From the NCBI RefSeq assembly GCF_000716595.1, contig NZ_JNXC01000032.1:1-64000 (forward strand): 64,000 bases of DNA, written 5' to 3'. This DNA comes from Saccharothrix sp. NRRL B-16314 (GTDB taxonomy: Bacteria > Actinomycetota > Actinomycetes > Mycobacteriales > Pseudonocardiaceae). This document shows, one piece after another, positions 3,167-10,828 of this stretch; position 1 is the stretch's first letter, and every line of letters starts with the position of its first letter. Below the pieces are notes generated by a model. It made no database searches and was not told where the DNA came from. It saw nothing but the letters and a program-made list of their open reading frames with translations. Made by a program: the position numbers and the translations under genes.

Positions 3167-5035
3167 TCAGAGGCCGCGTTCCAGGTGGTCCGCCATCAGC
3201 CTGACGAAACGGGACGGGTCGGGGAGGTCGCCGCCCTCCGCGAGCAGCGCCATGCCGTGCAGCAGCTCGGCGGACTCGGCCAGCCGGCTGTGGTCGTCGT
3301 TCCCGGCGAACGCCGTGTGCAGCCTGGTGACCAGGGCGTGGCCGGGGTTGAGCTCCAGCACCCGCTTCACCGGCGGCAGCTCCTGCCCCATCGCCCGGTA
3401 CATCTTCTCCAGGGTCGGGGTCAGGTCGTGGGCGTCGCCGACCACGCAGGCGGGCGAGGTGGTGAGGCGCGAGGACAGCCGCACCTCCTTGACCCGGTCG
3501 GTCAGCGTGGTCGTCATCCACGCCAGGAAGTCGGCGAAGTCCTTCTGCCGCTCCTCCGCCTGGGCCTTTTCCTCCTCCGTCTCCAGGTCGACCTGCCCCT
3601 TGGCGATCGACTGGAACGCCTTCCCCTGGTAACCGGGCACGGCGTCGACCCACATCTCGTCGATCGGGTCGGTGAGGATCAGCACCTCGAAGCCCTTGGC
3701 GCGCAGCGCTTCCAGGTGCGGCGAGTTCTCCACGGTCGCCCGCGAGTCACCCGTCATGTAGTAGATGTGCTGCTGGTCGTCCTTCATCCGCTCGACGTAC
3801 TGCGCGAGCGTGGTCGGCCGCTCGGCGTCATCGGTCGAGGCGAACGACGCGACGTCGAGGATGGCGTCCTGGTTCTCGGTGTCGCTGAGCAGGCCTTCCT
3901 TGACCGCCGCGCCGAACTCGCGCCAGAACGTCTCGTACGACTCGGGCTTGTCCGCCATCAGGGACTTGACGGTGGACAGCACCTTCTTCACCAGCCGGCG
4001 GCGCACGCTCTGGATCTGGCGGTCGTGCTGGAGGATCTCCCGCGACACGTTCAGCGACAGGTCGTGCGCGTCCACGACGCCCTTGACGAACCGGAGGTAC
4101 TCCGGCATCAGCTCTTCGCAGTTCTCCATGATGAAGACCCGCTTGACGTAGAGCTGCACGCCGCGCTTGCGCTCGCGCATGAACAGGTCGAGCGGCGCCT
4201 GCGACGGGATGAACAGCAGCGCCTGGTACTCGAAGACCCCCTCGCCGTGCATGCGGATGGTTTCGAGCGGCTTGTTCCAGTCGTGGCTGACGTGCCGGTA
4301 GAACTCGGCGTACTCGTCCTCGGTGACGTCGGAGGCCGGGCGCGCCCACAGGGCCTTGCGGGAGTTGATCGTGGCGGGCTCGGCGCCGTCCTCGGTCGCC
4401 ATCCGGATCGGCCACGTGATGAAGTCCGCGTACCGCTTGACGACTTCCTTGATCTTCGCGGTGGACGTGTAGTCGGCGAGGTGGTCCTCGCTGTCCGCCG
4501 GCTTGAGGTGCAGGGTCACCGAGGTGCCCTGCGGCACGTCGGCGACGTCCTCGATCGTGTAGGTGCCCTCACCGCTCGACTCCCACCGGACGCCCTCCGC
4601 CGAACGCGGGTGCTTCGTCACCAGCGTGACCTTGTCCGCGACCATGAACGACGAGTAGAAGCCGATGCCGAACTGCCCGATCAGGTCCTGCGACGCGGCG
4701 GCGTCCTTCGTCTCGCGCAGCTTGTCCAGGAACTCGGCCGTGCCGGACTTGGCGATCGTGCCGATCAGCCCGATGACGTCCTCGCGGGTCATGCCGATGC
4801 CGTTGTCCCGGATGGTGAGCTCGCGCGCCTCCCGGTCCACCTCGATGGCCACGTGGAGGTCCGACGTGTCCGCGACGAGGTCCTTGTCGCGGAACGTCTC
4901 CAGCCTCAGCTTGTCCAACGCGTCCGAGGCGTTCGACACCAGTTCGCGCAGGAACGTGTCCTTGTTCGAGTAGACCGAGTGGATCATCAGTCGGAGCAGC
5001 TGACGTGCCTCCGACTGGAACTCGAGCGTTTCCAC
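3167..5035 (-). CDS. htpG: Molecular chaperone HtpG (Hsp90)
   Basis: Cytoplasmic ATP-dependent Hsp90 chaperone that remodels late folding intermediates. The N-terminal GHKL ATPase shows the N-box ([14 protein letters not shown]), the [10 protein letters not shown] motif and the [13 protein letters not shown] lid/glycine-rich segment. The middle and C-terminal domains ([35 protein letters not shown] region) follow in normal order. The GTG at 5035 is preferred: AAGGA lies five bases before it and the protein then begins [14 protein letters not shown], the usual HtpG start. Length is 622 residues, full for the family. It is divergent from the RNA-repair operon across a 138-bp region that must hold both promoters. 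I see no CIRCE element there. Confidence 0.97.
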
Positions 5036-5173
5036 GTTCGTCCTTTCTGTCCTACCGCCGTCGACCCGTGATCGTATCCGTTCTCCCGGTGGCCGGGTGC
5101 GGTGTGGAAAACCGGTCGGCCATCCGTGGTGCCGATCTCTATGGTTCTCCCTGATCGAGTGGTGGGAGGGGTC

Positions 5174-6835
5174 ATGCGCACGCCGTACCCGCGCACGCCG
5201 CACCTCCCGTGGTCGCCAGGGGTGTCGGCGGACGACGTGCGGATCGCCGACCTGGGGCGGCTGCGCGGCCGTGAAGTGGTGGTCACCGAGAAGCTGGACG
5301 GGGAGAACACCACCCTGTACGCGGACGGGGTGCACGCGCGGTCGCTCGATTCGGCGCACCACCCGTCCCGGTCGTGGGTCAAGGGGCTCCAGGGCCGGAT
5401 CGGGTCACGGCTGCCGCGCGGGTGGCGCGTCTGCGGTGAGAACGTCTACGCCCGTCACTCGATCGGCTATTCGGACCTGGCGAGCTGGTTCTACGGGTTC
5501 TCCGTGTGGGACGGCGACCGCTGCCTCGACTGGGACCGCACGGTGCGCTTCCTGCGGGACGTGGGTGTGCCCGCTCCCCCGGTGCTGTGGCGCGGGGTGT
5601 TCGACGAGCGGGCGCTCCGGAAGCTGCGGGTCGACACCGAGCGGCAGGAGGGCTTCGTCGTGCGGACCGTCGACGGGTTCCCGCGCGCGGAGTTCGGGCA
5701 GCGGGTGGCGAAGTGGGTGCGCGCCCGGCACGTGCGGACCGACCAGCACTGGATGACGGCACCGGTGGTCGAGAACGGGCTCGGCCCGGCGTCGGTGCTG
5801 TGGGACGTGCGGTCCGGTGCGCCGTTCGACGCCGCGGCCCTGTTCTCGGCGGTCGGTGTCGCGGGTGATGCGGAGCCGGCGCTGGCCGTGTGCGCCGGTG
5901 GGACAGGCGACGCGCGGCTCGCCGCCGTCCTGGCGGCCGGGTTGCACCGGGTTCGACGCGGACGGGTGATGCCCTTGCTGGCGGGGCCGGTCGGGGTCGG
6001 GGTGGCACGGCGCGTGGGTGATCTCGTGGGCCTGCACCGCCTGCTGCACGAGCCGTTCCCCGACGAGGCGCGCCGGGCGGGGTTGCTGCGCATGTCGACG
6101 GCCGTCGACCTGGACGTGCTGCACGCCGTGTCGGCCGCCGTCTCCGACGACCGCGCCGCGCGTAACCAGGTGGCCTGGTCCGCGCTGCACGCCGAGGAAG
6201 TCGGGTCGTGGGAGCGGCTGCGCGCGGGGTTGCGGGAGCGGCTGGGGCACGGCCCGGTCGGTGATCGGTGCTGGGCCGAGGCGCGGGACGCGAGCCTCCG
6301 GGCGGGGCGGGTGCTGGACGTGGCGGAAGCGGAGGCCGCGACCTGGCGGTGGCGCTCGGGTGACTTCCCGGCGTTGGTGCAGCTGGTGGGGCTCTCCGGG
6401 AGCGGCAAGACCACGTTCGCCGCCGGGCTGCCCGACGTGGACGAGCGCGTGTCGCTGGACGACCTGCGTGCCGACGCTGGTGACCGGGCCGACCAGCGGG
6501 CCAACGGCCGGGTGCTGCGCGCCGGGCTCGACCGGCTCGACGCGGCGCTGCGCGTCCACCGGACCGTGGTGTGGGACGCGACCTCGCTGGTCGACCAGCA
6601 GAGGTCGCTGGTGCACGCGGTCGCGCGGCGGCACGACGCGATGGTGACGCACGCGGTGGTGTTGGTGGACGAGCGCGAAGTGGCCCGGCGCAACGGGATG
6701 CGGGAGCACGCGGTGCCGGCGGCGGTTCTCGACGCGCAAGCACGCCGGTTCAGCCCGCCGTACCCGTGGCAGGCCCACCGGACCTGGTACGTCGGCGCGG
6801 ACGGCGCCTCCGCGCTCGACGAAGGGGACCTGTGA
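5174..6835 (+). CDS. RNA ligase - P-loop polynucleotide kinase fusion
   Basis: Bifunctional RNA-repair enzyme of 553 residues. Residues 1 to about 225 form an ATP-dependent RNA ligase nucleotidyltransferase domain. Motif I is EKLDGEN with the adenylated lysine K40; YGFSVWDG, EGFVVR and AKWVR match the later ligase motifs. A helical linker (about 230-395) has no assignable fold; it could be a degenerate HD-like region. Residues about 400-553 form a P-loop kinase (GLSGSGKTT, K412) with the DATSL and RNGMREHAVP segments seen in T4-type 5'-OH polynucleotide kinases. Expected roles are phosphorylation of 5'-OH RNA ends and sealing to 3'-OH ends. Start ATG 5174 follows GGGAGGGG closely; an in-frame ATG at 5141 is possible. 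The stop overlaps the next start (TGATG), so translation is coupled. Confidence 0.88.
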   Translation: MRTPYPRTPHLPWSPGVSADDVRIADLGRLRGREVVVTEKLDGENTTLYADGVHARSLDSAHHPSRSWVKGLQGRIGSRLPRGWRVCGENVYARHSIGYSDLASWFYGFSVWDGDRCLDWDRTVRFLRDVGVPAPPVLWRGVFDERALRKLRVDTERQEGFVVRTVDGFPRAEFGQRVAKWVRARHVRTDQHWMTAPVVENGLGPASVLWDVRSGAPFDAAALFSAVGVAGDAEPALAVCAGGTGDARLAAVLAAGLHRVRRGRVMPLLAGPVGVGVARRVGDLVGLHRLLHEPFPDEARRAGLLRMSTAVDLDVLHAVSAAVSDDRAARNQVAWSALHAEEVGSWERLRAGLRERLGHGPVGDRCWAEARDASLRAGRVLDVAEAEAATWRWRSGDFPALVQLVGLSGSGKTTFAAGLPDVDERVSLDDLRADAGDRADQRANGRVLRAGLDRLDAALRVHRTVVWDATSLVDQQRSLVHAVARRHDAMVTHAVVLVDEREVARRNGMREHAVPAAVLDAQARRFSPPYPWQAHRTWYVGADGASALDEGDL

Positions 6836-9471
6836 TGCGCACCAGCGAAGAGGTCTACCACCGGATCCGCTGGGACCCGCGGTTCGACCCGGCCCGGTTC
6901 GTGTTCGGCGTGCAACAGCGTGGCGCCAGGCCGAAGCGGGTCGCGCTGTCGTCGTTCGTGCCGGGTGGCGAGGTGCCGTGGCACCGGGTGCTGTTCGTGG
7001 AGGCCGACGGCGAGGTGGTCTGGGACCGGGCCACCGGACTCGACCGCGTCGGTTCGTCGGGCGCCGGGCGAGTGCGTGCCCCGCGCCGGTTGCGCGCACC
7101 GGTGTTCACCGCCGGCACGCCACACGCCTGGGACAACGGTTGGGTGCCCGCCGAACCGGTGGGGACGACCGTGGAGACCGTGCGGGTGTTGACGTGGAAC
7201 GTGCTGTGGGACCGCTACGACAGCGACCGCATCGACACGGCCCGCCGCCGTCCGCTGCTGTTCGCCGAGCTGGCGGCGGCCGACGCGGACGTGATCGCGT
7301 TGCAGGAGGTCGAGCCGGAGCTGCTCGTCGCGCTCCTCGCCCAGCCGTGGGTGCGCCAGAGCTACACCGTCGACGTCGACCCGCTCGGCCCGGACGTCGA
7401 CCGCACGGGTGTGGTGGTGTTGAGCCGGCTGCCCGTGATCGAGGCCGGTCGGTTGTCGCTCGGTGCGCACAAGGCCGTCGCCGCGGTCGTCGTGGAGACC
7501 GCCGGCGGGCCGCTCGTGGTCGCCGCCACGCACCTGACCAGCGACCACACCGCCAACGGTCCGTCGAAGCGGCGGGCGCAGCTGGTGCGGGTGGCCGAGG
7601 CGTTCGCCGGGGTCGAGGGCGAGGTGCTGCTGGTCGGGGACTTCAACGACGGCGGACGGCGGCCGGCCGAGGTGCTCGGGATGCGGGACACCTGGCTGGA
7701 AGCGCGGTCCGACGAGCCGCCGACGTTCGACCCCGTGGCGAATCCCCTGGCCGCTGTCTCGTCGCTGTCGGGCCGCGCCTCGCGACTCGACCGGGTGTTC
7801 GTGCGCGGCCGGCTGCGGTGCGTCGGGACCGAACTCCTGGGCACCGAGTCCACCGACGGCCTGTTCGTGAGCGATCACTACGGGGTGCTGGCGAGCCTGG
7901 CGCCCTCCGTGCCGTCCGGCTCGCTGGACTCGGAACCGACCCCGCGCACGGCCGTGGTGTGGCTGCCGGGGCCGTGGGAGGAGGTCGAGCGCGTCCGCCG
8001 TGACCACGACCCGCGCGCCGACCGGTGGCCGCCCCACGTGACCGTGCTGTTCGGGTTCGTCCCGGAATCCGACTTCGACCAGGCCGTGCCGCTGCTGTCC
8101 GAGGCGGTGGCGGAGGTGCCGGCGTTCCCGGTGCGGGTGGCGGGGGTGCGTTCGTTCGGGCAGGACGTGGTGTGGCTCGACCCGGCGGCGGCGGGCGTCA
8201 CGCCGTGGACGGCGCTGCACGACGCGGTGCGGCGGCGGTTCCCCGGCTGCCGGAGCCGTGACCGCTTCACCCCGCACCTGACGGTCGGCGGGTCCGCACG
8301 CGCGGCCGAGCGGATCGGCGAGTGGTCGGGGCGGGTGGACGAGGTGGTGGTGCTGTCGCGCCGGGGCGACGGCCCGATGCTCCCGCGCGCGGCGGTCGCG
8401 TTGGGGACCGGTGAGGTGCGGTGGTTCGAGGAGCCCGCGAGTGAAGCGGGACCGTCACTGGACGCGGTGGCCGAACGCGTTGCCCGCGCGTTGACCCCCG
8501 CGTTGGACGTGGTGCACGTGGTCGGGTCGCGGCGGATGGGCTGTGGCCTGCCCGACGCGGACCTGGACCTGGTCGTCGTGGCGGCGGATCCGACGACCGT
8601 GGCCGACCGGGTGGCCGCCGCGCTGCCGGGGGTGGCGGTTCGACCGGTGATCGGCGCCCGGACGCCGGGGTTCCGGATGGCCGTGGACGGGCTGGACGTG
8701 GACCTCGCGGTGGTGGCCGGCGGTGCGGCGGACCGCGAGGTGGCGATGAGCGCGATCTCGGACGCGGACGCGGTGTCGGCGGCGGTCGGGGGTCGGGTCG
8801 ACGAGTTCCGACGTCTTGCCCGTGAGGTGAAGAGGTGGGCTCGGGCACGCGGGTTGGACTCGGCGCCGTTCGGAGGTGTCCCGGGTCTCGGCTGGTCGGT
8901 GCTCGCGGCGAGGACCGTGCGCGACTGGGACGGCCCCGACCTGCTCGCCGGTTTCTTCACCCAGTGGGCCGCGTGGGACTGGCGCGACCCGATCGGTCTG
9001 GTCGCAGCACCCGCGAGCACCGGCGCTCCGGTGACGATCATGACCCCGACCGCTCCCGTGCGTTCCTGCACCGAGCAGGTCGGCCCCGGATTCCGGGACC
9101 TGCTGACGGCCGAGCTGTACCGGGCGTGGGAGATCGTGGCGGCCGGTGGACCCGGCCTGTCCGCCCCACCCGACGCGCACCGCACGCACGCCGCTTGGGC
9201 GTTGGTCACCGTGCCGCGCGGGCTCGTGGGTCCGGTGCGCGGCCGGATGCGTGCGCTGCTCACGGCGTTGGAGGTGGCGGGCGCACCGGACGCCCACGCT
9301 TGGCCCCGACCGGTCGGGCGGGAGCCGGACTCGGTGCGGTTCGCGATCGGCTTGGGCCGCCGTCCCGTGTCCGCCGCCGTGCTCGCCGAGGTGGTCGCGT
9401 CGTGGCGGAGCGGGCTGCGCGGTGTCGAGGTCGTCCGGGTCGGGAACGGCGATGTACCGACCCTGCGCTGA
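6835..9471 (+). CDS. MJ1316 / EEP / 2H phosphoesterase / poly(A)-polymerase-like RNA repair protein
   Basis: Multidomain RNA end-processing protein of 878 residues. Residues 1-75 match the MJ1316 (DUF504) module, proposed to recognise RNA cyclic-phosphate ends (EEVYHRIRWDPRFDP, EVPWHRVLFVEADGEVVWDR). About 118-360 is an endonuclease/exonuclease/phosphatase fold (LTWNVLWDRY, IALQEVEPE, GDFND, SDHYG). About 375-545 is a 2H phosphoesterase with paired H401-V-T and H481-L-T motifs, expected to open 2',3'-cyclic phosphates. About 550-870 is a beta-type nucleotidyltransferase (GS at 564-565, D576-L-D578, third acid in LDVDLAVV) followed by a poly(A)-polymerase-like helical domain (VKRWARARG, GVPGLGWSVLAA). 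Together with the overlapping ligase-kinase gene this supplies end recognition, healing, extension and sealing. Catalysis is inferred from motifs. Substrate is unknown, but a tRNA cluster faces the operon. Confidence 0.88.
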   Translation: MRTSEEVYHRIRWDPRFDPARFVFGVQQRGARPKRVALSSFVPGGEVPWHRVLFVEADGEVVWDRATGLDRVGSSGAGRVRAPRRLRAPVFTAGTPHAWDNGWVPAEPVGTTVETVRVLTWNVLWDRYDSDRIDTARRRPLLFAELAAADADVIALQEVEPELLVALLAQPWVRQSYTVDVDPLGPDVDRTGVVVLSRLPVIEAGRLSLGAHKAVAAVVVETAGGPLVVAATHLTSDHTANGPSKRRAQLVRVAEAFAGVEGEVLLVGDFNDGGRRPAEVLGMRDTWLEARSDEPPTFDPVANPLAAVSSLSGRASRLDRVFVRGRLRCVGTELLGTESTDGLFVSDHYGVLASLAPSVPSGSLDSEPTPRTAVVWLPGPWEEVERVRRDHDPRADRWPPHVTVLFGFVPESDFDQAVPLLSEAVAEVPAFPVRVAGVRSFGQDVVWLDPAAAGVTPWTALHDAVRRRFPGCRSRDRFTPHLTVGGSARAAERIGEWSGRVDEVVVLSRRGDGPMLPRAAVALGTGEVRWFEEPASEAGPSLDAVAERVARALTPALDVVHVVGSRRMGCGLPDADLDLVVVAADPTTVADRVAAALPGVAVRPVIGARTPGFRMAVDGLDVDLAVVAGGAADREVAMSAISDADAVSAAVGGRVDEFRRLAREVKRWARARGLDSAPFGGVPGLGWSVLAARTVRDWDGPDLLAGFFTQWAAWDWRDPIGLVAAPASTGAPVTIMTPTAPVRSCTEQVGPGFRDLLTAELYRAWEIVAAGGPGLSAPPDAHRTHAAWALVTVPRGLVGPVRGRMRALLTALEVAGAPDAHAWPRPVGREPDSVRFAIGLGRRPVSAAVLAEVVASWRSGLRGVEVVRVGNGDVPTLR

Positions 9472-9655: not shown

Positions 9656-9727
9656 TGGTCGCGCGTCCTGGTGTCGATCCAGGCACTCCGGAGTTATGAG
9701 CTCCAGGTGGCCGCCGGGCCACGCGCG
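9656..9727 (-). tRNA. tRNA-like gene with CAU anticodon, degenerate D-arm, encoded CCA
   Basis: Cloverleaf-like gene of 69 nt plus encoded CCA. The acceptor stem CGCGCGT/ACGCGCG is perfectly paired with C1-G72 and discriminator A. The anticodon stem TGGAG/CTCCG (one wobble pair) encloses CTCATAA, giving anticodon CAU with the normal U33. The T-stem CCTGG/CCAGG is perfect, but the T-loop ATCGACA lacks the canonical TT at its start. The D-arm is reduced to GGCC, a four-base loop and GGCC, with no G18-G19 pair. This is not an ordinary tRNA-Met or tRNA-Ile2: tertiary D-loop/T-loop contacts look lost. It may be a decoy, a specialised substrate or a decaying gene. It is the last of three tRNA units on the minus strand. 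Confidence 0.7.
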
Positions 9728-9730
9728 TGA

Positions 9731-9756
9731 CCGCCCACCGCTGATCGGGTGGGCGG
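9731..9756 (-). other. Spacer hairpin between tRNA units
   Basis: Perfect nine-base-pair inverted repeat (CCGCCCACC, eight-base loop, GGTGGGCGG) filling the 34-bp gap between the GUG and CAU tRNA units. It could be a processing hairpin or a partial terminator that sets the ratio of the two tRNAs. Confidence 0.55.
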
Positions 9757-9761
9757 GGTCT

Positions 9762-9838
9762 TGGGGTGACCGACCGGACTCGCACCGGCTTCGACCAGAT
9801 CCACAATCTGGCGCCTCGTCTACTTCGGCTTCGGCCAC
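9762..9838 (-). tRNA. tRNA-His-like (GUG), encoded CCA, no G-1
   Basis: Cloverleaf with acceptor GTGGCCG/CGGTCAC (one G-T wobble), discriminator C73 and encoded CCA. The anticodon stem CCAGA/TCTGG encloses TTGTGGA, giving anticodon GUG (His) with U33. C73 is the histidine discriminator. However, the base before G1 is T, so the G-1 usually needed by histidyl-tRNA synthetase is not encoded. The D-stem is GCC/GGC with an 11-base loop lacking the normal AG...GG pattern, and the T-loop TGCGAGT has G at position 55. It starts two bases after the discriminator of the upstream GAC unit, so the two must be processed from one transcript. It may be aminoacylatable only after G-1 addition, or not at all. 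Confidence 0.82.
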
Positions 9839-9840
9839 AG

Positions 9841-9913
9841 TCGTCCCGCCAGGCTTCGAACCTGGGACCTTCCGCATGTCGAGCGGATGCTCTACCGGCT
9901 GAGCTACAGGACG
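9841..9913 (-). tRNA. tRNA-like gene, nominal anticodon GAC (Val) with C33, no encoded CCA
   Basis: A 73-nt cloverleaf with canonical D-arm (GCTC/GAGC, GG in loop), variable region AGGTC, T-arm CCAGG-TTCGAAG-CCTGG and acceptor CGTCCTG/CGGGACG, discriminator A. The anticodon stem TCCGC/GCGGA encloses TCGACAT. Read normally this gives anticodon GAC, but position 33 is C instead of the near-universal U, and C1-G72 is not the usual valine acceptor. CCA is not encoded. The body looks functional while the anticodon loop is aberrant, which fits an RNA meant to be cut or sensed rather than translated. A shifted reading (CGA, Ser) would need an unpaired stem and is less likely. It is the first unit of the cluster. 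Confidence 0.72.
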
Positions 9914-9914
9914 T

Positions 9915-9938
9915 CTTCTGCCACGGCACGAACAGAAG
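9915..9938 (-). other. Second leader hairpin before the first tRNA unit
   Basis: Six-base inverted repeat CTTCTG/CAGAAG with a 12-base loop, directly between the terminator-like hairpin at 9939-9970 and the first tRNA unit. Its first arm is also the pyrimidine-rich tail of that hairpin, so the two elements are contiguous and could influence each other's folding or serve as a processing site. Confidence 0.4.
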
Positions 9939-9970
9939 AGCCGCCCGGATCGGTTTCCCGATGGGCGGCT
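9939..9970 (-). terminator. Terminator/attenuator-like hairpin in the tRNA-cluster leader
   Basis: Long imperfect hairpin: outer arms AGCCGCCC/GGGCGGCT (8 bp), a two-base bulge, then ATCGG/CCGAT (5 bp) around a TTTC loop. On the minus strand it is followed by CTTCTGTTC, the most T-rich run nearby, as in an intrinsic terminator. It lies 23 bp after a 23-residue ORF and 26 bp before the first tRNA unit. If transcription of the tRNAs starts upstream, this would act as an attenuator; otherwise it simply ends the small-ORF transcript. Confidence 0.55.
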
Positions 9971-9993
9971 CCCCGGTCACGACGAAGGTCACG

Positions 9994-10065
9994 TCATGGC
10001 AGGAAGTCCGTGCAGCGCAGGAGCATCGAATGGACGGGATGGACCGCGTGTCGCATGGTCATCAT
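9994..10065 (-). CDS. Possible 23-residue leader peptide ORF
   Basis: A short ORF starting ATG at 10065, eight bases after a perfect AAGGAG, and reading MMTMRHAVHPVHSMLLRC then TDFLP. It is rich in His, Met and Arg and has no signal or membrane segment. A terminator-like hairpin lies 23 bp after its stop, and the tRNA cluster follows. The layout (strong ribosome binding site, tiny ORF, hairpin, RNA genes) resembles a translational attenuator. The three His codons are suggestive because a tRNA-His-like gene is downstream, but that link is speculation. An in-frame extension upstream to about 65 codons exists but lacks a comparable ribosome binding site. Confidence 0.4.
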   Translation of the reverse strand: MMTMRHAVHPVHSMLLRCTDFLP

Positions 10066-10174
10066 GATGTCCGCTCCTTCCGCTGTGGTGTGGGGCAAGC
10101 ATGCCTGTCGGACTCCAAGTGGTGCAACGCCTTTACCAAGCCCTTCATGCAATCGCTCGGCTACGATCCACCGC

Positions 10175-10828
10175 ATGCCGGAACCCCGCACCCTCGCGGA
10201 CCTCCCCTTCGCCTCCTACCTGGAGGACCACGACGGAGAACACCTGGAGCCGGGCGGCGACTACAACGTCGTGCGCTTCGCCGACCGGGAGTTCCCCGCC
10301 CAGGCGGCGGGGAACGCGAGGTTCAGCGAGTCGGCGATGTCCACCGTCAGGTTCACCGACGGGTCGTTGCGGCGGTCCCGGTTCAACGACGTCTGGCTGC
10401 ACGGCGTCCAGGTCATCGGCACCGACCTGGCCGAAACGGGCTGGCTCGACGCGGAGATCGTGAACAGCGCGTTCGCCGGGGTGGCGCTGTTCGAGTCGTC
10501 CATGAGCCGCGTGGTGTTCTTCGGCTGCAAGCTCGTCTCGATCAACCTCCGCGGCGCGAAGCTGCGCGACGTCACGTTCGTGAACAGCATCCTGCGCGAC
10601 GTGGACTTCACCGAAGCCGAGCTGACCAACGTGTCCTTCCCCGGCTCCACCCTCGAAGACACCCGGTTCGCGCAGGTCAAGCTCAAGAAGGTGGACCTGC
10701 GCGAAGCCGCCGAACTGGGCATCCGCAACGGTGTCGACTCGCTCAAGGGCGCGACGATCACCCTCGCCCAGGCGTTGGACCTGGCCCCGGTGTTCGCCCA
10801 CACGCTCGGCATCACGGTGAAGGACTGA
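10175..10828 (+). CDS. Pentapeptide-repeat protein
   Basis: Cytoplasmic protein of 217 residues. About residues 50-190 are pentapeptide repeats of the A(D/N)LXX type (VRFTDGSLRRSRFNDV, DLAETGWLD, INLRGAKLRDVTF, ILRDVDFTEAELTNVSF). They fold as a right-handed quadrilateral beta-helix. Some family members mimic DNA and shield gyrase from quinolones or peptide toxins; most have unknown roles, and nothing here proves gyrase binding. The start ATG at 10175 follows the usual N-terminal PEPRTLADLPF segment; no strong ribosome binding site is present, so the transcript may be leaderless. The 3' end overlaps the convergent serine hydrolase gene by 17 bp. The promoter region is shared, head to head, with the small leader ORF of the tRNA cluster. 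Confidence 0.88.
   Translation: MPEPRTLADLPFASYLEDHDGEHLEPGGDYNVVRFADREFPAQAAGNARFSESAMSTVRFTDGSLRRSRFNDVWLHGVQVIGTDLAETGWLDAEIVNSAFAGVALFESSMSRVVFFGCKLVSINLRGAKLRDVTFVNSILRDVDFTEAELTNVSFPGSTLEDTRFAQVKLKKVDLREAAELGIRNGVDSLKGATITLAQALDLAPVFAHTLGITVKD

Follow-up and report, generated by a model that had tools for sequence, protein, structure and literature searches.

The genome of Saccharothrix sp. NRRL B-16314 carries, within the 64,000-nucleotide stretch analysed here (positions 1 to 64,000 of contig NZ_JNXC01000032.1; hereafter the window), two back-to-back genes on the + strand, at 5174-6835 and 6835-9471, that share a single base. We consider it probable that they constitute an RNA break-repair system spread over two co-inherited polypeptides, in which gene 1 is a fused Deinococcus-type ligase/HD-kinase and the healing of 3′ ends has been handed to gene 2. 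Systems of this kind are known; the architecture and the coupling of the pair are new. An original prediction, made from the sequence of this stretch, had described two overlapping genes at 5174..9471 that together encode a complete RNA repair pathway. The overlap is indeed there, as a one-base TGATG junction, and the features of the pair are as follows.

5174..6835, + strand: gene 1, RNA ligase, degenerate HD domain and polynucleotide kinase, 553 amino acids (Pfam, alignment, profile comparison)
5270..5719, + strand: ATP-dependent RNA ligase domain, residues 33-182, with K40 at 5291-5293 (Pfam RNA_ligase; K40 in 30 of 30 aligned gene 1 rows)
5783..6361, + strand: degenerate HD domain, spanning roughly residues 204-396 (hhalign comparison with HD-Pnk profiles, controls included; match of an HD-Pnk profile)
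6374..6760, + strand: 5′-OH polynucleotide kinase domain, residues 401-529, with K412 at 6407-6409 (AAA_33)
6833..6837, + strand: TGATG stop/start overlap of the two genes (TGA 6833-6835, ATG 6835-6837)
6835..9471, + strand: gene 2, MJ1316, EEP, 2H and poly(A) polymerase, 878 amino acids (Pfam, alignment)
6835..7029, + strand: MJ1316 domain, predicted reader of RNA cyclic-phosphate ends (Pfam PF04457, 7.8e-19)
7189..7878, + strand: EEP (exonuclease-endonuclease-phosphatase) domain with N122, E158, H233, D269, N271, D347 and H348 (Exo_endo_phos)
7969..8367, + strand: 2H phosphoesterase domain with H401 and H481 (Pfam 2_5_RNA_ligase2; both histidines in 80 of 80 loci)
8437..9468, + strand: nuclear-type poly(A) polymerase with palm (GS 564-565, D576, D578, D623), central and RNA-binding domains (structure comparison)

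Conservation was assessed in three alignments: A1 (30 actinobacterial gene 2 rows) and A2 (30 gene 1 rows), each including the window, and A3, which joins nine actinobacterial gene 2 rows to 21 relatives of a Calothrix protein (18 named cyanobacterial, three metagenomic) that are 26-31% identical to the window gene 2 protein. A wider residue survey, with crude frame extraction, covered 80 loci (L021-L100). Gene 1 matches Pfam RNA_ligase (PF09414) with an E-value of 5.3e-35 (121.5 bits, cut-off 27) and AAA_33 with an E-value of 2e-21. The predicted ligase lysine K40 (EKLDGEN) and kinase lysine K412 (GSGKTT) are in place, and both Pfam matches are above cut-off. Ligase residues K40, D42, E89, G160 and K180 and kinase residues K412, D429, R432, D468 and R505 are invariant in all 30 A2 rows; in the wider loci, K40 is kept in each of the 68 rows that reach this position. 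The kinase combines the P-loop GxGK[ST] with a T4/CthPnkp-type kinase fold. The ligase domain is 56-64% identical to Deinococcus plasmid ligases, and a weak Foldseek match of gene 1 is to the Trl1 LIG-KIN structure 9r3w (TMq 0.25).

Between ligase and kinase lies a region that the original prediction had missed, as it had the C-terminal RNA-binding domain of the polymerase (it also gave the EEP domain no role). None of the 25 Pfam families shown for the 30 gene 1 proteins was an HD family; profile comparison alone revealed the HD domain. Using hhalign, we aligned gene 1 with four Deinococcus HD-Pnk proteins over both the HD part and the kinase (probability 99.9). The middle part alone, compared with the HD part of seven HD-Pnk proteins, scored 57.4 (probability 94.8). 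The controls stayed lower: a reversed profile gave 18.8, the best of 40 column shuffles 15.8 and the best of five unrelated profiles, a 2H profile, 26.5 (probability 11.9, E 0.0025). Moreover, a plain HD-Pnk profile matches gene 1 from model position 129, well ahead of the kinase. Six residues, which we take to be the metal site (H51, H81, D82, H107, H139 and D173 in D. radiodurans numbering), are invariant in all seven HD-Pnk proteins. In the hhalign alignment with gene 1, the H51 and H107 positions are gaps; D82 corresponds to residue 259, an aspartate in two of 30 A2 rows and in eight of 71 loci; and D173 corresponds to residue 323, an aspartate in none of the 30. H81 is kept as H258 (30 of 30) and H139 as H288 (28 of 30). 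Judged by this alignment, the HD site is mostly gone, not entirely. The HD part has a dN/dS of 0.19-0.28, the same purifying selection as in the neighbouring parts, and therefore it probably plays a structural or binding role. The loss from gene 1 of most of the site that heals 3′ ends would explain why 2H and EEP domains are placed in the partner gene.

The closest relatives with a described setting are the products of the D. radiodurans plasmid MP1 operon, given as DRB0100-DRB0099-DRB0098 in passages of PMC1997131 and PMC11833690 and annotated as an 'RNA ligase family protein', a TIGR02452 (PARG) protein and an AAA ATPase (HD-Pnk). The ligase DRB0100 is 56% identical to gene 1 residues 1-203 and has the same K40, the kinase of HD-Pnk (DRB0098) is 44% identical over 147 amino acids, and here too the genes are adjacent and overlapping. 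On the other hand, D. radiodurans retains the HD residues and makes ligase and HD-Pnk as two proteins whereas gene 1 encodes a single chain, the HD-Pnk gene lies two genes beyond its ligase gene, and no MJ1316, EEP, 2H or poly(A) polymerase gene is annotated beside them. Gene 1 is homologous to both ligase and HD-kinase, from which we infer its history: it looks like a fusion of Deinococcus-type ligase and HD-kinase genes. Such a fusion is easy to picture, since in three other Deinococcus plasmids the two genes overlap directly by four bases.

The first three domains predicted for gene 2 were borne out both by Pfam and by their residues. The MJ1316 match (68.6 bits against a cut-off of 26.3) covers the whole domain; Exo_endo_phos matches with an E-value of 5.5e-19, with the catalytic residues and the EEP fold present; and 2_5_RNA_ligase2 matches with 3.1e-29. 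The 2H motifs of the window are H401-V-T and H481-L-T, the first of which reads HVN in many relatives. The seven EEP residues listed above and both 2H histidines are invariant in A1 and A3. Fold searches gave few or no matches for the HD part, MJ1316 and 2H, and this is no counter-evidence, as the lists were filled by other domains. MJ1316 fused to RNA-repair domains is also described for eukaryotes in part of PMC6514570.

The remainder of gene 2 had been predicted to be a poly(A)-polymerase-like nucleotidyltransferase. Of the profile searches that the original prediction had proposed, those for RNA_ligase, AAA_33, MJ1316, EEP and 2H gave matches, and PAP_central scored just below its cut-off (E 6.9e-6, 26.3 bits against 27.1); NTP_transf_2 was weak (0.016). 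Despite these scores, structure comparison settled the identity of the polymerase: the end of gene 2 has the whole fold of nuclear-type poly(A) polymerases, including the C-terminal RNA-binding domain. The structure matches are eukaryotic poly(A) polymerases, and all three domains, the GS motif and the three carboxylates are common to the bovine (1f5a), human gamma (4lt6) and yeast (2q66) enzymes. Unlike these canonical enzymes, to which it is about 20% identical, the window polymerase sits behind MJ1316, EEP and 2H domains. The PolyA_pol head domain of bacterial PcnB and class II CCA-adding enzymes was not among the seven Pfam families matched at E up to 1. Residues G564, S565, D576, D578 and D623 are invariant in A1 and A3; the catalytic residues of both the ligase and the nucleotidyltransferase are thus present and invariant. 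The position of bovine Y237, presumably the adenine-stacking tyrosine, is occupied by aspartate (D675) in all 30 A1 rows, and by tyrosine in 11 and histidine in 10 of the 21 A3 rows of the cyanobacterial group. The aspartate suggests that the adenine preference of the polymerase may be lost.

The two genes are inherited together. The ligase gene is adjacent, at -22 to +81 nucleotides, in 69 of the 71 fetched loci with enough upstream DNA. We also searched a sample of 392 genomes of the genus Streptomyces, to which the L030 strain belongs, accepting gene 2 at E up to 1e-150 (a cut-off set after weaker matches were seen to be the 2H part or remnants) and gene 1 at E up to 1e-30. Gene 2 was found in 75 and gene 1 in 77; among the 80 genomes with either gene, 72 have both, three gene 2 only and five gene 1 only. 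Of these eight, G333 and G334 are the strains of loci L030 and L075, G392 has a fragment with altered EEP residues, G537 and G623 retain remnants of both genes, G384 is at a contig end, and in G589 and G704 the match covers the ligase part alone. Likewise, 24 genomes of the same genus as the window fall into 14 with both genes open (G014 included), five with both decayed (G007, G009, G017, G019 and G022) and five with neither, if weak matches of about 40 bits to the kinase alone are disregarded. Across all domains compared, dN/dS is 0.0-0.54 (three genomes for gene 1, four for gene 2). Taken together, these comparisons point to a real, well-kept and plausible repair system with a predicted activity.

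A further link between the two proteins comes from strains that lost the ligase. Of the 80 surveyed loci, 78 retain every one of the 14 catalytic residues of gene 2, and the two exceptions, L030 (D578N) and L075 (D578N and D623G), are the two strains without the gene 1 ligase. In both, the EEP and 2H residues are intact. The strains are sisters, with 94% nucleotide identity at the locus and shared flanks, and the decay of the polymerase therefore counts as one event. That polymerase residues are lost only where the ligase is lost suggests that an active polymerase is of use only together with the ligase, favouring extension before sealing over tailing for decay. An unlikely alternative is that the pair repairs or destroys: the polymerase would A-tail the healed 3′ end for decay by PNPase, competing with the ligase for the same 3′-OH. 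Bacterial 3′ tails speed RNA decay (passages of PMC5872136), and the fold, RNA-binding domain included, matches a tailing polymerase. However, a decay tag should stay useful without the ligase, yet the ligase-less strains lost polymerase carboxylates while keeping EEP and 2H, and, given the aspartate at the Y237 position, the preference for adenine may be lost. Such natural loss of the ligase makes the role of the polymerase testable.

Under the repair reading, the reactions, each assigned by domain family, could proceed as follows. The MJ1316 domain, by family prediction, would dock on the 2′,3′-cyclic phosphate end left by a metal-independent ribonuclease. The 2H domain would open the ring; enzymes of this family do so most likely to a 2′-phosphate. 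EEP would then take off the phosphate to give a free 3′ end, a step needed because the HD healing domain of gene 1 lost most of its metal site. The assignment of EEP as the phosphatase follows from the mostly erased HD site, from the phosphate that 2H leaves behind and from the lack of any other phosphatase apparent in either protein. ANGEL2, a CCR4-type protein, hydrolyses RNA 3′-phosphates according to part of PMC9525292. Next, the nuclear-type poly(A) polymerase would restore lost nucleotides, the kinase would phosphorylate the 5′-OH, and the ligase, adenylylated on K40, would seal. Alternatively to EEP, a Tpt1/KptA encoded elsewhere in the genome could remove the 2′-phosphate after sealing. 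As a dedicated partner, Tpt1 was rejected: it was matched in all 24 same-genus genomes (in one below the cut-off), whether or not they carry the pair, and is thus not specific. The likeliest guess for the target RNA is tRNA. If the scheme is true, one two-gene cassette spans recognition to sealing of cut RNA, extension included, and two proteins could suffice to reconstitute the mending of trimmed breaks.

Several observations weigh against this reading. The polymerase-decay result is a single event. The HD site is only partly erased, with two of six His/Asp positions kept and D259 present in some proteins. In the wider loci with a gene 1 frame, K412 is kept in 77 of 78 and R505 in 73 of 78, departures that come with crude extraction (L049 accounts for two of them). 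The MJ1316 part of the structure model is poorly predicted, and EEP is closer in fold to TDP2, a 5′-phosphodiesterase, than to a known 2′ or 3′ phosphatase. Moreover, the 2H domain is missing from some Streptomyces gene 2 proteins: in L169, L170, L171 and L174, the gene 2 matches skip 2H, keep MJ1316, EEP and poly(A) polymerase, and adjoin an intact ligase gene. In G014, the 2H part is shortened. Such variants suggest that the 2H step may come in trans or that EEP acts on cyclic ends itself, as ANGEL2 reportedly does. A full-length gene 2 homologue on a Calothrix brevissima conjugative plasmid (L101:7995-10970), near a dynamin-family gene, has no gene 1 homologue on the same plasmid. Finally, RtcB, Tpt1/KptA and a full Pnkp are encoded in the same genome as well, so the pair would be an optional system that is gained and lost.

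The most direct counter-evidence comes from DRB0100, the closest studied ligase. In the parts of PMC1997131 that describe it, DRB0100 adenylylates K40, joined neither DNA nor RNA in vitro, and gave no DNA ligation together with its operon partners. The same passages note that capping could not be excluded, and this gives some room to a quite improbable alternative, in which the ligase domain caps or tags RNA 5′ ends or a protein with AMP, and the pair guards or marks RNA ends and joins none. This would leave unexplained why K40, D42, E89, G160 and K180 are invariant, why a fused 5′-OH kinase makes the 5′-phosphate that a classical ligase needs, and why the partner gene carries 3′-end enzymes. 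If the repair reading is true, the pair suggests what the apparently inactive DRB0100 may lack, namely an end-binding or 3′-end partner. The least probable of the alternatives, a DNA or DNA-RNA end repair system, draws on the fold likeness of EEP to TDP2, a DNA end-processing enzyme, and on the Deinococcus operon being DNA-damage-induced and proposed for RNA and/or DNA repair (passages of PMC11833690), and against it stand MJ1316, 2H and nuclear poly(A) polymerase being RNA modules and the established chemistry by which 2′,3′-cyclic ends do not arise on DNA. The recognise-heal-extend-religate interpretation of the original prediction is therefore partly supported: the modules, the intact residues, the strict co-inheritance and the ligase-less strains, which tie polymerase to ligase, speak for it, and the failure of DRB0100 to ligate in vitro speaks against it.

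We next compared the proposed repair system with known ones. Fungal and plant tRNA ligases (Trl1, RNL) combine ligase, kinase and 2H cyclic phosphodiesterase activities. In contrast to these, the actinobacterial 2H domain is in the partner protein, and the pair adds MJ1316, EEP, poly(A) polymerase and a degenerate HD domain. The RNA repair 'syntax' of Burroughs and Aravind (2016), with its RlaP nucleotidyltransferases, reportedly unites a ligase with end-healing enzymes and a nucleotidyltransferase, and the present architecture may be among those it shows. The syntax is summarised in PMC7824862, parts of which also describe sets of ligase, kinase, phosphoesterase and nucleotidyltransferase in jumbo phages. 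Pnkp1-Rnl-Hen1, a three-protein repair complex according to passages of PMC4411300, resembles the pair in its CthPnkp-type kinase and in uniting healing with sealing. It differs in that the pair has no Hen1 methyltransferase (above cut-off) or metallophosphoesterase Pfam match, and the host has a separate full Pnkp. Given the jumbo-phage sets and the three-protein complex, the claimed lead of the pair in completeness over classical systems holds only in part. A literature search by title and start of abstract, with most subscription papers outside its scope, found no experimental study of this pair.

The pair puts a nuclear-type poly(A) polymerase in bacterial lineages in which RNA tailing is attributed to PNPase. 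In the relevant passages of PMC5872136 and PMC8208693, Streptomyces is described as lacking poly(A) polymerase I, with RNA 3′ tails made by PNPase; for cyanobacteria, too, PNPase is posited to do the tailing; a poly(A) polymerase I gained by horizontal transfer is listed for one Streptomyces strain; and the gene 2 polymerase is unmentioned. In a tentative, bolder picture, this bacterial repair machine has turned a full nuclear-type poly(A) polymerase into an RNA 'fill-in' enzyme with altered base choice, which rebuilds missing 3′ nucleotides before sealing, and uses the degenerate HD domain as a docking part. Found in actinobacteria, streptomycetes included, and in cyanobacteria, it might be a reservoir from which, or to which, the eukaryotic enzyme moved.

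Relatives of gene 2 are widespread but patchy in actinobacteria and cyanobacteria. Across the phylum the pair is rare, with three whole copies of gene 2 in 296 genomes, one of them that of the window. Most of the 120 listed of 162 relatives of the Calothrix protein have all five domains, and the named ones are cyanobacterial. The pattern of gain and loss is, we infer, as expected for a system facing sporadic RNA-cutting attacks. With the anti-phage defence models of PADLOC, gene 1 gave only a P-loop match (E 0.036) and gene 2 none. Carriage of gene 2 by phages or viruses was rejected, with no match in 50,697 phage records and seven stretches matched by an IMG/VR pattern, none of which encodes a relative. 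Plasmid carriage fared no better: of eight records, the three that cover most of gene 2 are 3 to 12 megabases long.

Parts of the pair also occur elsewhere. A short MJ1316-2H protein of 302 amino acids is encoded on a Streptomyces plasmid (L102:5001-5909), and in many genomes of the genus Streptomyces the gene 2 profile matches over its 2H part alone. The ligase domain has stand-alone relatives in 32 phage records; the 20 listed are phages of at least 235 kb with 39-51% identity, XacN1 and Atu_ph07 among them (records L146, L147 and others). In L071, L076, L090, L094, L096 and L099, a second ligase-like protein lies 1.1-1.8 kb downstream of the pair; by eye, it resembles the DRB0094 RNA ligase type (e.g. 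L094:12581-13867, - strand).

Within the window, which has a G+C content of 72%, the start of gene 1 is ATG 5174, found in the same column in 27 of the 29 other A2 rows, while two carry five extra residues. Gene 2 starts at ATG 6835; GTG 6832 is also possible. The nearest named relatives of both proteins come from Saccharothrix and Actinosynnema, and relatives already bear the database names 'RNA repair domain-containing protein', 'poly(A) polymerase' and 'RNA ligase family protein'. The HSP90-family gene htpG (3242-5173) is divergent from gene 1, with 141 bp between them.

5033..5173, no strand: divergent intergenic region common to gene 1 and htpG (comparison of loci)

This intergenic sequence is mostly conserved in the three genomes aligned. 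We looked for htpG in 15 same-genus genomes: the divergent layout is common to seven of them, and in G007 htpG stands beside the remnant of the pair. In G004, G011 and G013, the pair is at another place than htpG, and in G002, G006 and G010, which lack it, no trace of the pair was found in the 8 kb next to htpG. At other loci, judged by eye, a ribosomal protein L3-like gene is upstream in 13, and EF-Tu and EF-G-like genes are downstream in nine each; even the most frequent neighbouring gene family lies next to the pair in at most 18 of the loci compared.

Downstream of the pair, 9656-9913 on the - strand holds a tRNA-Val, a tRNA with a GUG-reading loop (by eye) and an ARAGORN 'tRNA-Met' with a CAU loop, an encoded CCA and an unusual D arm, which has no Rfam match. 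The last is identical at 71 of 72 bases in L164, and is possibly a tRNA-like RNA. As ARAGORN found tRNA genes in only seven of 100 loci, among them that of the window (flanks are short in 20 of the 100), the tRNA cluster was rejected as part of the system. A pentapeptide-repeat protein is encoded at 9887-10828; its gene probably starts later than the longest frame, since that frame overlaps the tRNA-Val gene on the opposite strand.

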